Positions 22,149 through 35,685 of a stretch of DNA of 64,000 bases are shown piece after piece. The notes beneath the pieces are model-generated. The model was given only the letters and a program-made list of their open reading frames with translations. It was not told the DNA's origin and did not search any database. A program made the position numbers and the translations under genes. The stretch's first letter is position 1. Each line of letters opens with the position of its first letter. The DNA is from Natronolimnobius sp. AArcel1 (GTDB taxonomy: Archaea; Halobacteriota; Halobacteria; Halobacteriales; Natrialbaceae). The DNA lies in contig NZ_JAAKXY010000002.1 of NCBI RefSeq assembly GCF_011043775.1, positions 496,001-560,000 on the forward strand, written 5' to 3'.

Positions 22149-23312
22149 TTAATCGTCGGCGATCGGTGGCTCCGACGGGGTTTCAGGCGGTTCAGTGCTC
22201 GGGTCGGCTTCAGGAGCATCCCCAGACTCGAGTGCGTCCTCGGCGAGCGTCTCGAGGGAAACATCGCCGTTGACTTCGTCCGCGAGGAGGTCAACGGCTT
22301 CGACGAAGACGGCGACGATCAGCGGGCCGACGACGATGCCGATTGCCCCGAGCGTAAAGAGGCCACCTGTGAAGCCGACGAAGTAGAGACTGCCGGGCAG
22401 TCCCGCAGACCGGCGGGCGAGGCGAGGTCGCACCGCAATATCGGGCAGCCAGGCGACGAAGGCGATGCCGAGGACGCCAACCAGCGTTGCTGCCATGAGT
22501 TCGCCCGCTGCGACGTGATAGAGTGCAATCGGTGCGATCAGCAGGCTCGGGCCGATGATCGGCACGAACTGGAGGATGGCAGCGATGAGTGCGAGCGTAA
22601 AAGCCATCTCGTAGCCGAGTCCCCAGAACAGTGGATACGCAATGACAAGCGTCGCAAGCGAGGTTGCAAGTTGCAGAACGTAGATTGCATACAGCGTCTC
22701 TCGAGTGCGCCGAGCGAGTGCGTACACGATGTCCCGGTAGTCGTGCGGGACCGGCGCGATTGCGGCCCGACCGGCGGCATCGCCTTTGAGCAACAGCGCG
22801 AACAGCAAAATAACGAACAGCGCGAACTTGATCGCAAGCACTGGCAACGCGAGCGCGACCGAGGCTCCGATGCTAGTGAGTGCGTCGACTGCGAGTGACT
22901 GAACGTGTGCAACCTCGATAACGTAGGTCACGTCGAAGGCGGTGACCGGAATCTCGTCTGGCAACCCCTCGATGAGTGCTATAACCTCCTCGAGTCGAAA
23001 GTAGAGCGTGCCAACGAGCGGCGAAAAAACCGCAAGCGCGCTGGCAAAACCGATCATCGTCGCGACGACCGCACTCAGCCACTCCGAGAGGCCACGACGA
23101 ACGAGCCAGGCGTGAACCGGCAACAGGACGTACGCGACCGTCAGCGCGAGCAAGATTGTACTGAGAACCTCGAGCAAAATTGCACCCGTAATGACCCCCA
23201 GCACGAGGACGATTCCGGCGAGCACGTATCGACGCCTTCGGCTCGAGTCGGATGATTGCTTCGCGCCCGGCGTTGGAGGGTCCGCAGCCGGGGTGGCACG
23301 CTCGTTCGACAT
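22149..23312 (-). CDS. AI-2E family (PerM-like) membrane transporter
   Basis: 387 residues with about eight helices. The N-terminal pair (YVLAGIVLVLGVITGAILLE, ILLALTVAYVLLPVHAWL), the large mid loop with the EEVIALIEGLP helix, and the C-terminal GLGYEMAFTLALIAAILQFV, PIIGPSLLIAPIALY and GAIGIVVGPLIVAVFVEAV are typical of the AI-2E/UPF0118 group. These are permease-like proteins; in archaea some members are thought to be sodium-proton antiporters. An acidic tail ends the protein. Same strand as the DUF5518 gene, 54 bp apart. Confidence 0.88.
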   Translation of the reverse strand: MSNERATPAADPPTPGAKQSSDSSRRRRYVLAGIVLVLGVITGAILLEVLSTILLALTVAYVLLPVHAWLVRRGLSEWLSAVVATMIGFASALAVFSPLVGTLYFRLEEVIALIEGLPDEIPVTAFDVTYVIEVAHVQSLAVDALTSIGASVALALPVLAIKFALFVILLFALLLKGDAAGRAAIAPVPHDYRDIVYALARRTRETLYAIYVLQLATSLATLVIAYPLFWGLGYEMAFTLALIAAILQFVPIIGPSLLIAPIALYHVAAGELMAATLVGVLGIAFVAWLPDIAVRPRLARRSAGLPGSLYFVGFTGGLFTLGAIGIVVGPLIVAVFVEAVDLLADEVNGDVSLETLAEDALESGDAPEADPSTEPPETPSEPPIADD

Positions 23313-32459: not shown

Positions 32460-34187
32460 TTAGTTTTCGAATCGAGCCTGGACGAACGGCTGAACATCGT
32501 CGATATCGGAGAGGCGCGAATCCGACAGGAGAACGGCTTCGGTTTCGTCGATGGGCACCGAGAGGCTGATCTCTTTGGTTCGGCCGTACCGCCCCTTCGA
32601 GACAACCACAGCATTGACGATCCCGAGCATATCGAGTTCGCTAATGAGGTCCGTTACCCGTCGCTGGGTGAGTACGTCAGCATCGATCTCCTCACAAAGC
32701 CGTTTGTAGATATTGAACACCTCGCCCGTGTTGATGCTGTGAACGCCGTTTTTCTCGAGCAAGATGATCGCGAAGAGGACGAGTTTCGATTGCGTGGGGA
32801 GGGTTCGGACGACCTCGACGACGCGATCGAGTTCGATCTTATCCTGGGCCTCGCGGACGTGTTCTTCGATGATCGTCTCGGCTTGCGAACGTTCGGCGAG
32901 TTCACCCGCCGTCCGCAACAGATCGAGCGCTCGGCGCGCATCGCCGTGTTCCTGCGCGGCAAACGCTGCACACAGCGGAATCACGTCATCCGAAAGCGCC
33001 CCGCCTTTGAACGCGACTTCGGAGCGATGTTCTAAGATGTCTCGCAACTGATTCGCGTCGTACGGTGGGAAGACAATCTCTTCCTCGCCAAGCGAAGACT
33101 TGACGCGCGGGTCGAGAAAGTCCGTGAATTTCAGATCGTTCGAGATGCCGATGATCGAGACCCGCGAATTCTTGAGTTCGGAGTTCATCCGCGAGAGATT
33201 ATAGAGCGTGTCGTCACCGCTTTTCTCGACGAGTTTGTCGATCTCGTCTAACATGATAACGACCACCCGTTCGTCGTAATCGACGGCATCGAAGAAAACG
33301 CTGTAGACGCGGTCGGTCGGCCACCCCGTCATCGGCACGTCCTCGAAGGAATCTTTGTCGTCCTCGAGTGATTCGATTCGGTCGTCGATTTCCTCACGCG
33401 AATCGAATGGCGTCGACGCAAGCGGGTGGTCATCCGTCTCAGTTGCATCCGAACCGGTGGGGGATGTGCCGTCGTGATCGGGACCAGTCTCACGACCGTC
33501 TTCACCCGCTTGTCCGCCCGAATCAGACCCCCCTGTTTCGCCTGGAGAATTGCGCTCCGTCGGCTGATTGGCGGGTCCAGTAGAAACGCCTGGGGTGGCG
33601 GATTCGTCGGCGTCGTCGAACACGTCGGGGTCGACCTCGAGGTCGACTGACTCGTCTGTGCCGTCCTCGTACTCTTCGAGTGCGTCTCGAAGCGTCTCGA
33701 GAGAGTCAACCTGGTCGTCGATCCGAGCTTTGTTCTTCTCGATGAACTTATTCGCGAGTTGTGCGAGAACGCGATACTGCGTGTCGGTCACCTCGCAGTT
33801 GATGTACTCGACGTCACAGGGGACACTGTATTTCTGGGACGTGCTCTCGAGTTCCTTACTAACGAACTTGGCGCTCGCGGTCTTGCCGGTCCCGGTCTTG
33901 CCGTAGATCAGGATGTTCGATGGCGTCTCGCCGCGAAGGGCAGCAACGAGGATCGTCGCCATCTTGTTGATCTGATCGCTCCGGTGTGGGAGTTCGTGTG
34001 GCGTATAGGAGGGGCGCAGCACTTCCTTGTTCTCGAAGATCGGCTCTCCGCTGAGGAGGTCGTCGAACAGCCCCTGCTTGGGCTCATCGCCGCCAAGATC
34101 GGTTCCCTCGAGGTCCGCTGAAAACCCATCTCGGTTGTCGATCTCGGTCGTCTCTGACTGTGGTGGTTCCGTATCGTCGTTTGACAT
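32460..34187 (-). CDS. orc1: Orc1/Cdc6 replication initiator
   Basis: 575 residues. AAA+ initiator: Walker A GKTGTGKT (96-103), Walker B IMLDEID (311-316), sensor 1 ISNDL, sensor 2 GDARRALDLLRTA and a C-terminal winged helix (about 455-575, ending with the TQRRVTDLISELDMLGIV recognition region). About 90 acidic, Gly/Ser-rich residues (about 178-262) are inserted between Walker A and B, longer than in compact Cdc6 proteins, and contain two ORB-like DNA boxes. It is transcribed away from the adjacent gene-free origin region with matching ORBs, the arrangement of oriC1 in other haloarchaea. It loads MCM and initiates replication. Confidence 0.95.
   Translation of the reverse strand: MSNDDTEPPQSETTEIDNRDGFSADLEGTDLGGDEPKQGLFDDLLSGEPIFENKEVLRPSYTPHELPHRSDQINKMATILVAALRGETPSNILIYGKTGTGKTASAKFVSKELESTSQKYSVPCDVEYINCEVTDTQYRVLAQLANKFIEKNKARIDDQVDSLETLRDALEEYEDGTDESVDLEVDPDVFDDADESATPGVSTGPANQPTERNSPGETGGSDSGGQAGEDGRETGPDHDGTSPTGSDATETDDHPLASTPFDSREEIDDRIESLEDDKDSFEDVPMTGWPTDRVYSVFFDAVDYDERVVVIMLDEIDKLVEKSGDDTLYNLSRMNSELKNSRVSIIGISNDLKFTDFLDPRVKSSLGEEEIVFPPYDANQLRDILEHRSEVAFKGGALSDDVIPLCAAFAAQEHGDARRALDLLRTAGELAERSQAETIIEEHVREAQDKIELDRVVEVVRTLPTQSKLVLFAIILLEKNGVHSINTGEVFNIYKRLCEEIDADVLTQRRVTDLISELDMLGIVNAVVVSKGRYGRTKEISLSVPIDETEAVLLSDSRLSDIDDVQPFVQARFEN
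33528..33547 (-). repeat. ORB-like 20-mer inside orc1
   Basis: The minus strand reads CTCCAGGCGAAACAGGGGGG. It encodes SPGETGGS in the acidic insert of Orc1 and is inverted relative to 33576-33595, 28 bp away. Confidence 0.6.
33576..33595 (+). repeat. ORB-like 20-mer inside orc1 (inverted partner)
   Basis: TCCAGTAGAAACGCCTGGGG on the plus strand, encoding TPGVSTGP on the gene strand. A weaker match than the polD1 copies because the G-run is interrupted. Confidence 0.5.
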
Positions 34188-34220: not shown

Positions 34221-34524
34221 ATCACGAACCCAGAACAGGAATTATTGCGTGTAGATGGGCCAAAGAGCACCATTTACGAATGTGGAAACCTGGTCCGGGT
34301 CCAGTTGATGCAAACGAAACAAAGGAAGACGGACGTATTAAATTCTTCCCTTCAGTAGACGACGGGTGTCACGAGTAGACTGCATAGGCGACGATGACCC
34401 GAAGTTACGACCGGCTTGTTCCCATCTCGATTAGAGGATTTGTCACATTCCTGAGTGTGCTGTTTCTTCGAGTTGTATTGGAGTGTGCTACCAAGGGACA
34501 TGAGTGTTCGGAACGGGCCGGATG

Positions 34525-34550
34525 CCCCCCACCCCTTTGTTTCGAGTGGA
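34525..34550 (-). repeat. origin recognition box 1
   Basis: The minus strand begins TCCACTCGAAACAAAGGGG and continues into TGGGGGG. It differs from ORB 2 at one position of the shared core. The G-run points away from the AT-rich segment, i.e. towards orc1. Confidence 0.85.
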
Positions 34551-34585
34551 ACGGTGAACGAGAGGGGGTGGGGGAACGATGGCTT

Positions 34586-34721
34586 CTAGAACGGGAAGGT
34601 TTAGGTAGGTGGGTAAGAAACAGTATCCGCAGTCCTAGCAAAGCAGATAGATTACTAGATGTATCTGCTATTGTTACTAGTTCCTACTAGAATAGGTCTC
34701 TAGAGCATCTTGAGTTACTAG
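34586..34721. other. CTAG-rich, AT-rich unwinding segment of the origin
   Basis: Seven CTAG tetranucleotides at 34586, 34635, 34655, 34677, 34687, 34700 and 34718, three of them within TTACTAG. Elsewhere in the window CTAG is seen only as scattered single copies, in line with its known depletion in haloarchaea. The segment also contains an 8-bp inverted repeat (34642-34669). Confidence 0.75.
34642..34669. repeat. inverted repeat in the origin unwinding segment
   Basis: AGCAGATA and TATCTGCT, perfect 8-bp arms around a 12-bp spacer that contains one of the TTACTAG copies. It may extrude as a hairpin or bind a dimeric protein. Confidence 0.7.
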
Positions 34722-34836
34722 ACATCCCGTACCTGCTGGATTCATGAGGGAGACGCCATCTCTCTCCGGTTCGAGGTGAACAAAGCGCATCCTGTACCCA
34801 GCTGAGAAACAATGCCCCTCCCCAGCAGTTGGCGTC

Positions 34837-34861
34837 TCCAGTCGAAACAAAGGGGTGGGGG
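34837..34861 (+). repeat. origin recognition box 2
   Basis: Begins TCCAGTCGAAACAAAGGGG and continues TGGGGG. It matches ORB 1 in inverted orientation 286 bp away and follows the known haloarchaeal ORB pattern with a 3' G-string. Confidence 0.85.
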
Positions 34862-35046
34862 TGTGACGTCGATCGTTCTCCCTAACAAATCACAACTATC
34901 ACAGGTCTGATTTCAAACACTTATACAGCGCATCTCTGTACTGGTAGTTCTATCCTATTGGTTAGTCGATAGGACAGACATAAGCTTAAGTGAATTCAGT
35001 CAGTAGTACGCGCAGATGCACCCCGCGGTGCTGGAGGCCCTTACAG

Positions 35047-35685
35047 ATGGGATTGTTCACAGAACTCAAAGATAGTGTCTCTCGGGTTACGGATCGCCTG
35101 TTCTCAGAACAGGAACCCAAACGTATTGGAATCTATGGTCCGCCGAACGCTGGTAAGACGACCCTCGCGAACCGTATCGCACGCGACTGGACTGGTGACG
35201 CCGTCGGCACGGAAAGTCACGTTCCACACGAAACACGTCGCGCACGTAGAAAAGAAAACGTCGAGATTGAACGCGACGGAAACACGGTGACGATCGACAT
35301 CGTCGACACGCCCGGTGTGACGACGAAAGTCGACTACGAAGAGTTCACCGACGAAATGGACGAAGACGACGCAATCCGTCGCTCTCGAGAAGCCACCGAA
35401 GGTGTCGCTGAAGCGATGCACTGGCTGCGCGAGGATGTCGACGGCGTCATCTACGTCCTAGATAGCGCGGAAGATCCGATCACGCAGGTCAACACCATGT
35501 TGATCGGGATTATCGAATCTCGCGATCTCCCTGTTCTTATCTTCGCGAACAAGATTGACCTGGACGACTCGAGCGTGAAACGGATCGAAGACGCCTTCCC
35601 ACAGCACAAGACGGTCCCGCTGTCGGCGAAAGAAGGCGATAACATGGACGAAGTCTACGATAACATCGCGGACTACTTCGGGTGA
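35047..35685 (+). CDS. arvA: origin-associated Era-like small GTPase (ArvA/OapA)
   Basis: 212 residues from ATG 35047, preceded by GGAGG (35033-35037). G motifs: G1 GPPNAGKTT, G3 DTPGV, G4 NKID, G5 LSAK. An N-terminal amphipathic helix (GLFTELKDSVSRVTDRLF) could touch membrane. This is the origin-linked GTPase known as OapA; in Haloferax volcanii its homologue ArvA is reported to drive extracellular vesicle formation. The three-gene order with DUF2073 and zinc-ribbon partners is conserved. It overlaps arvB by 4 bp, so the genes are translationally coupled. Confidence 0.92.
   Translation: MGLFTELKDSVSRVTDRLFSEQEPKRIGIYGPPNAGKTTLANRIARDWTGDAVGTESHVPHETRRARRKENVEIERDGNTVTIDIVDTPGVTTKVDYEEFTDEMDEDDAIRRSREATEGVAEAMHWLREDVDGVIYVLDSAEDPITQVNTMLIGIIESRDLPVLIFANKIDLDDSSVKRIEDAFPQHKTVPLSAKEGDNMDEVYDNIADYFG

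Follow-up and report, generated by a model that had tools for sequence, protein, structure and literature searches.

Why does a tetranucleotide that is strongly depleted in the surrounding DNA recur seven times in a 136-bp piece of a haloarchaeon's main replication origin? The stretch analyzed here, which we call the window, comprises 64,000 nucleotides of Natronolimnobius sp. AArcel1 and holds 22 CTAGs in total, compared with 95.6 ± 9.6 expected from dinucleotide shuffles, and the window as a whole is thus strongly depleted of the motif. Seven of these 22 lie inside 34586-34721, with first bases at 34586, 34635, 34655, 34677, 34687, 34700, and 34718, exactly where an earlier note on this DNA had placed them, and the TTACTAG context that it had claimed for three sites is found at 34655, 34677, and 34718. 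The same note had described the CTAGs elsewhere as scattered single copies; the remaining 15 in the window are indeed all single, with two of its example positions in need of correction (22865 to 22873 and 55156 to 55155).

Given a background rate of 0.44 CTAG per kb (measured over a 464-kb sample of this genome), the Poisson probability of at least seven in 140 bp is ∼5e-13, or ∼2e-6 genome-wide. The origin also exceeds other AT-rich DNA in CTAG density, as the 869 AT-matched windows taken from elsewhere contain a mean of 0.28 CTAG and a maximum of 4, and together with the shuffles this excludes chance or AT-richness as the cause of the cluster. CTAG triplets with gaps of 5-33 bp occur at eight places in the whole 4.56-Mb genome, four of them within the cluster, and TTA precedes the motif at 3 of the 7 cluster sites, compared with 5 of the 199 CTAGs elsewhere.

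The cluster is situated between the orc1/cdc6 gene and a small GTPase-like gene, in the following arrangement, where slots are named by their distance from the start of the left ORB core (34532), the zero point of what we refer to as the ruler.

32460 to 34187, reverse strand: orc1/cdc6 initiator gene (575 aa), adjoining oriC1; open reading frame.
34526 to 34550, reverse strand: left ORB with halophile G-string (CCCCCACCCCTTTGTTTCGAGTGGA), 96% complementary to the right ORB.
34564 to 34574, forward strand: left half of the internal G-rich inverted repeat, read from the sequence, with a function suggested by analogy (PMC3936714).
34586 to 34589, no strand: CTAG slot 54, at -33 from the anchor.
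34619 to 34631, forward strand: 13-bp anchor element AACAGTATCCGCA (consensus AACARTATCCGCA), recognized by cross-family conservation.
34635 to 34638, no strand: CTAG slot 103 with conserved flank CTAGCAAA, 90% exact in the rows of the family alignment.
34655 to 34658, no strand: CTAG slot 123 (TTACTAG), 74% exact.
34677 to 34680, no strand: CTAG slot 145 (TTACTAG), 97% exact.
34687 to 34690, no strand: CTAG slot 155, 94% exact.
34700 to 34703, no strand: seventh CTAG, offset 168, 10% conserved and outside the conserved ruler.
34718 to 34721, no strand: CTAG slot 186 (GTTACTAGA), 97% exact.
34648 to 34727, no strand: least stable 80-mer by nearest-neighbor calculation, the probable duplex-unwinding element (DUE).
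34815 to 34823, forward strand: right half of the internal G-rich inverted repeat (CCCCTCCCC), read from the sequence (compare PMC3936714).
34837 to 34861, forward strand: right ORB with G-string (TCCAGTCGAAACAAAGGGGTGGGGG), inverted with respect to the left ORB.
35047 to 35685, forward strand: small GTPase-like gene, the other boundary of the origin; open reading frame, listed with a start at 34990 (GTG).

This is the make-up of a canonical haloarchaeal oriC1, with inverted ORBs bearing G-strings, an AT-rich segment between them and an adjacent orc1/cdc6, a gene for which 124 of 125 family genomes give a match at E ≤ 1e-150. The cluster does lie between two ORBs (34526-34550 and 34837-34861), inverted and 96% complementary, as had been proposed for it, and the left one is near-invariant in the family alignment. 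Its assignment to the unwinding segment also held, since no 80-mer between orc1 and the GTPase gene is less stable than the one at the cluster (-93.7 kcal/mol at 34648-34727, compared with a window mean of -122.6 in the nearest-neighbor calculation), and GC content reaches a minimum of 37% in 60-bp windows of the origin segment. We rejected a reading of the cluster as part of an open reading frame at 34394-34690, since the slots are not spaced by multiples of three and relatives carry indels in the segment.

Across the origin regions of ∼110 haloarchaea, the Natrialbaceae carry CTAG at constant distances of 54, 103, 123, 145, 155, and 186 from the left ORB core, with an extra slot at 207 in one group of the family. 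Counted in 30 relatives, leaving out the window and its closest relative, 155 slots are filled, compared with 22 ± 4 under random placement. At slots 103, 123, 145, 155, and 186 the CTAG tetramer is retained in 90, 74, 97, 94, and 97% of the alignment rows, whereas the other tetramers of the same segment have a median of 3%; overall identity of the aligned segment to the window is ∼55%. The cluster is therefore conserved in relatives, with five slots 74-97% exact, and this CTAG-specific conservation rules out plain descent as the cause of the array. Slot 54 is filled in 18 of the 30 family relatives, and slot 123 has a CTAG within 2 bp in 27 of 30, being displaced by 1 bp in a Natrinema-like group whose neighboring slots have not moved, a pattern in the alignment that suggests that the motif itself is selected and not simply inherited. 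TTACTAG is common to slots 123, 145, 186, and 207, and some bases flanking the CTAG slots are also conserved; the flanks of slots 54 and 103 differ from this, leaving CTAG as the only shared sequence, and the extra sites of single genomes are CTAGs in varied contexts.

Of 53 family genomes, 48 have the ruler with at least four of five slots filled, 44 of them beside orc1 and the other four elsewhere at an ORB-flanked site. These four (G061, G062, G110, and G117) have an orc1 with no neighboring inverted ORB pair and a complete ORB-array-ORB unit elsewhere on the chromosome, in which the ruler is intact or nearly so (loci L163, L165, L167, and L162, respectively); the separation of origin and orc1 is ∼160 kb in G061 and G062. 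A search of genomes from 84,980 species gave 45 exact ruler matches. Natrialbaceae account for 35, and each of these has an ORB core at -101 to -104 and/or +208 to +240 bp; the other 10 are bacterial and have no ORB nearby. The bacterial matches are probably chance or local repeats. They fall on nine contigs (L186, L187, L194, L195, L198, L210, L212, L217, and L219), mostly from Prevotellaceae and other Bacteroidales. In the scrambled-ruler control at most four of five slots were found, and mostly three; a mirrored ruler is useless as a control because the scan covered both strands and CTAG is a palindrome. No ruler was found among IMG/VR viral contigs, and a viral source was rejected on this basis.

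Origin membership of the cluster, which the earlier note had taken to be meaningful, is strongly supported because the fixed spacing, the selective conservation and the retention in moved origins all speak for it. We are confident that the CTAG array is a selected cis-element of oriC1. A functionless cluster, in which avoidance of CTAG is merely relaxed in non-coding AT-rich DNA and the pattern passed on by common descent, would fit the observation that the motif is avoided mainly elsewhere (observed/expected ratio ∼0.1 in the flanks), yet relaxation would bring the ratio to 1 and in the origin it is 5; because the CTAG tetramers are kept where their neighbors are not, and the ruler follows moved origins, we find this barely credible. 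The sites might instead serve as promoter or operator elements for orc1 or the divergent GTPase gene, a reading that gains from Haloferax lucertense, where CTAG is enriched ahead of transcription starts (PMC11001535). The cluster, however, lies within the ORB pair, upstream of both genes by ∼400 bp (orc1) and >300 bp (GTPase gene), the moved arrays stay with the ORBs and not with orc1, and no Rfam match to a structured RNA was found in the origin region, which together make regulation of either gene highly improbable.

Three family members of genus g11 (G031-G033) have neither an ORB pair nor a ruler beside orc1. In two of them, G031 and G032 (L154 and L147), there are several copies of repeats holding three or four CTAGs (CTAGTAAGTTCTAGGGTCCTAGCAAACG...), and those inspected adjoin a transposase-like gene and not an origin, being CTAG-rich mobile-element ends. 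Natronorubrum texcoconense carries a complete ruler on each of two contigs (L223 and L225), and G107, where orc1 has two matches of equal quality, may represent a further such case, a duplicated oriC1-orc1 region. Two other orc-type genes in the genome of the window (contigs C6 and C7; L026:11173-11208 and L030:7134-7156) have four CTAGs upstream within a span of ≤∼36 bp, spaced unlike the ruler and, in C7, located between repeats ACACCCCTATCGATTTGTT.

Besides the CTAGs, the origins share a second element. The anchor, close to AACARTATCCGCA, is present with at most one mismatch in 47 of 81 haloarchaeal origins, compared with a chance expectation of ∼0.0015 per origin, and its distance from the ORB core is 85-103 bp across families. 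CTAGs stand at about -34 and at +13 to +16 of the anchor in five families (f1, f2, f3, f5, and f10); Halorubrum-like genomes keep an anchor variant, AACAGTACCCTCGACAA, and have lost these CTAGs. In family f5 and one f3 genus (L104, L105, L114, L119, L069, L073, and L076) the anchor is on the opposite strand, the origin core there being inverted relative to orc1. With the anchor AACARTATCCGCA these origins contain a conserved non-ORB element in the DUE, a feature of ucm/UBP origins. The anchor is a second candidate origin part and possibly the haloarchaeal counterpart of the Sulfolobus ucm.

The spacings between slots 103 and 186 (20, 22, 10, and 31) give a mean pairwise cosine of 0.91 at 10.5 bp (P 0.0007 in a post hoc test), and in the family consensus the period of this one-faced phasing, likewise post hoc, is ∼10.3-10.5 bp. 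Other lineages, with different spacings, have a weaker phasing signal at 10-10.5 bp (P 0.01-0.04, post hoc). This post hoc phasing suggests a factor bound on one helical face. TpA is the weakest stacking step, and phased, meltable or kinked TpA steps could by themselves aid bending and unwinding of the DUE with no dedicated reader, since phasing would sum the bends and the cluster is the least stable intergenic 80-mer. The inter-ORB segment nevertheless contains no TATA or TTAA, its other AT-rich sequence is unconserved, and the exact conservation of the CTAG palindrome exceeds what low stability would need, so that structure alone is in our view an unlikely account. A search of the accessible literature found no account of m4C lowering duplex stability.

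The main rival to a methylation-based reading is a sequence-specific, methylation-blind protein that recognizes the (TTA)CTAG repeats and opens the DNA or releases MCM, the methylase being incidental. Such a protein is possible because TTACTAG is repeated at slots 123, 145, 186, and 207 and conservation extends to some flanking bases; the direct TTACTAG repeats on one helical face, the excess of TTA ahead of CTAG in the cluster and the persistence of the anchor, in altered form, where the CTAGs are lost all agree with it, as does the precedent of UBP, which recognizes ucm, a DUE motif with its own protein in Sulfolobus origins (PMC12141716). Against it, slots 54 and 103 differ in their flanks and have only CTAG in common, and the additional sites of single genomes again show CTAG in varied contexts. 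On balance we regard such a protein as a serious if rather doubtful alternative.

The genome encodes a single MthZI-type methylase (G000:C3:76860-77984, with an SPPY motif). Its counterpart on the Methanothermobacter thermautotrophicus plasmid NC_001337 is 49% identical, and we take this plasmid to be the one that carries MthZI (CTAG). MthZI has been named as a homologue of HVO_0794 (PMC5867850). No endonuclease was recognized by eye in the ORFs adjoining the methylase gene, its neighbors resembling a gamma-glutamyltransferase, a GAF/HTH regulator, a small hypothetical protein, and an NADPH-dependent reductase; as to adjoining genes it is solitary, like the orphan methylase of the published haloarchaeal clusters (Blow et al. 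2016). Every one of the 111 near-complete family genomes has it, and across the order 28 of 292 genomes lack it; the 20 of these 28 that are listed all belong to family f3, a pattern of absence resembling that reported for the CTAG methylase family. The inter-ORB observed/expected ratio of CTAG is ∼5 in f1 and f2, 1.8-2.9 in f10, in f5 and in the other, methylase-plus f3, and 0.7 in methylase-minus f3. The array is absent from 11 methylase-minus origins, and also from methylase-plus f3 genomes (0-3 CTAGs, never full) and from four methylase-plus Halorubrum-like genomes. In the Orc1 tree the methylase-minus genomes fall within one clade, throughout which arrays are missing, and because the covariation is essentially one lineage split it is alone no proof that the array depends on the methylase.

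Taken together, the array is probably the site where the orphan methylase or a CTAG-reading protein acts on the start of replication. The CTAG slots are very probably the substrate of the solitary methylase; that their methylation state matters for firing is a suggestion to which we give a little under even odds. In the mechanism we favor, the CTAG ruler, which stands at fixed distances from the left ORB and the 13-bp anchor, spans the duplex-unwinding segment, and the solitary methylase would make m4C at its CTAGs. A CTAG-reading factor, perhaps the methylase itself, might bind the mostly one-faced row, and either this binding or the state of the sites, fully methylated or half methylated directly after replication, would alter the opening of the segment by Orc1/MCM and so time or limit firing. 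For this explanation as a whole, with a ruler and CTAG reading or methylation acting on origin opening, we estimate a probability of about 0.5; its most specific form, in which a helically phased m4C ruler is read as fully or half-methylated and sets when oriC1 may open, is a tentative and rather unlikely extension. If true, this would give archaea their first functioning epigenetic switch of an origin, independent of Dam/SeqA and built on a conserved anchor common to several haloarchaeal families. Why the near-universal haloarchaeal CTAG methylase, found in 174 of 217 genomes, is kept has been called an open question (Fullmer et al. 2019, PMC6471742), and with a fixed ruler of its targets located in the main origin's unwinding segment, the replication hypothesis can be tested directly.

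Such a test may suit Haloferax volcanii, the usual test organism, poorly, because its CTAG density is reported only around oriC2. The species grows even without origins, and for both reasons its missing growth phenotype weighs little. The study concerned assigned its m4C at CTAG to HVO_0794, found CTAG enrichment around oriC2 and none in the oriC1 region, and saw no growth defect without CTAG methylation (Ouellette et al. 2018, PMC5867850).

The phenomenon itself is not new, because CTAG clusters and the replication hypothesis were published in 2016, and control of firing by methylation, as proposed in the earlier note, had thus been anticipated. According to the accessible part of that paper, CTAG density peaks upstream of haloarchaeal orc1/cdc6 and correlates with the orphan m4C methylase, and a role in replication was proposed (Blow et al. 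2016, PMC4752239); for its Fig. 6D the legend gives CTAG and the main text CATG. Our locus has both the CTAG enrichment in non-coding DNA upstream of orc1/cdc6 and a CTAG-type methylase gene in the same genome, so that motif, place, solitary type of methylase and proposed role are alike; the difference is that the accessible part of Blow et al. gives motif density per 500-bp window, whereas the anatomy of a ruler is described here. Fixed spacing, anchor, phasing and moved-origin retention were not found in that part of the paper (PMC4752239), and as far as the accessible literature shows, including the accessible part of PMC4752239 as well as PMC5867850 and PMC6471742, this array anatomy is new.

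The origin resembles E. coli oriC, with its GATC/Dam/SeqA system, in the excess of a palindromic methylation target and in the solitary methylase. The two differ in that the target here is CTAG with m4C and not GATC with m6A, and in the fixed ruler positions between ORBs and the archaeal Orc1 initiator; GATC, enriched where sequestration is of the Dam/SeqA type, occurs zero times in our inter-ORB segment, and we know of no SeqA-like reader for CTAG. Both halves of the G-rich inverted repeat of PMC3936714 are found here (34564-34574 and 34815-34823), flanking the CTAG array as a separate element, and the text of PMC3936714 has no mention of CTAG. Sulfolobus oriC1, with ucm and UBP, likewise has a short conserved non-ORB element between inverted ORBs in the DUE, for which the reader and essentiality have been shown, whereas the haloarchaeal element is a candidate put forward from sequence (PMC12141716). 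Compared with the ucm element, the halophile version combines an anchor with a multi-site CTAG ruler.
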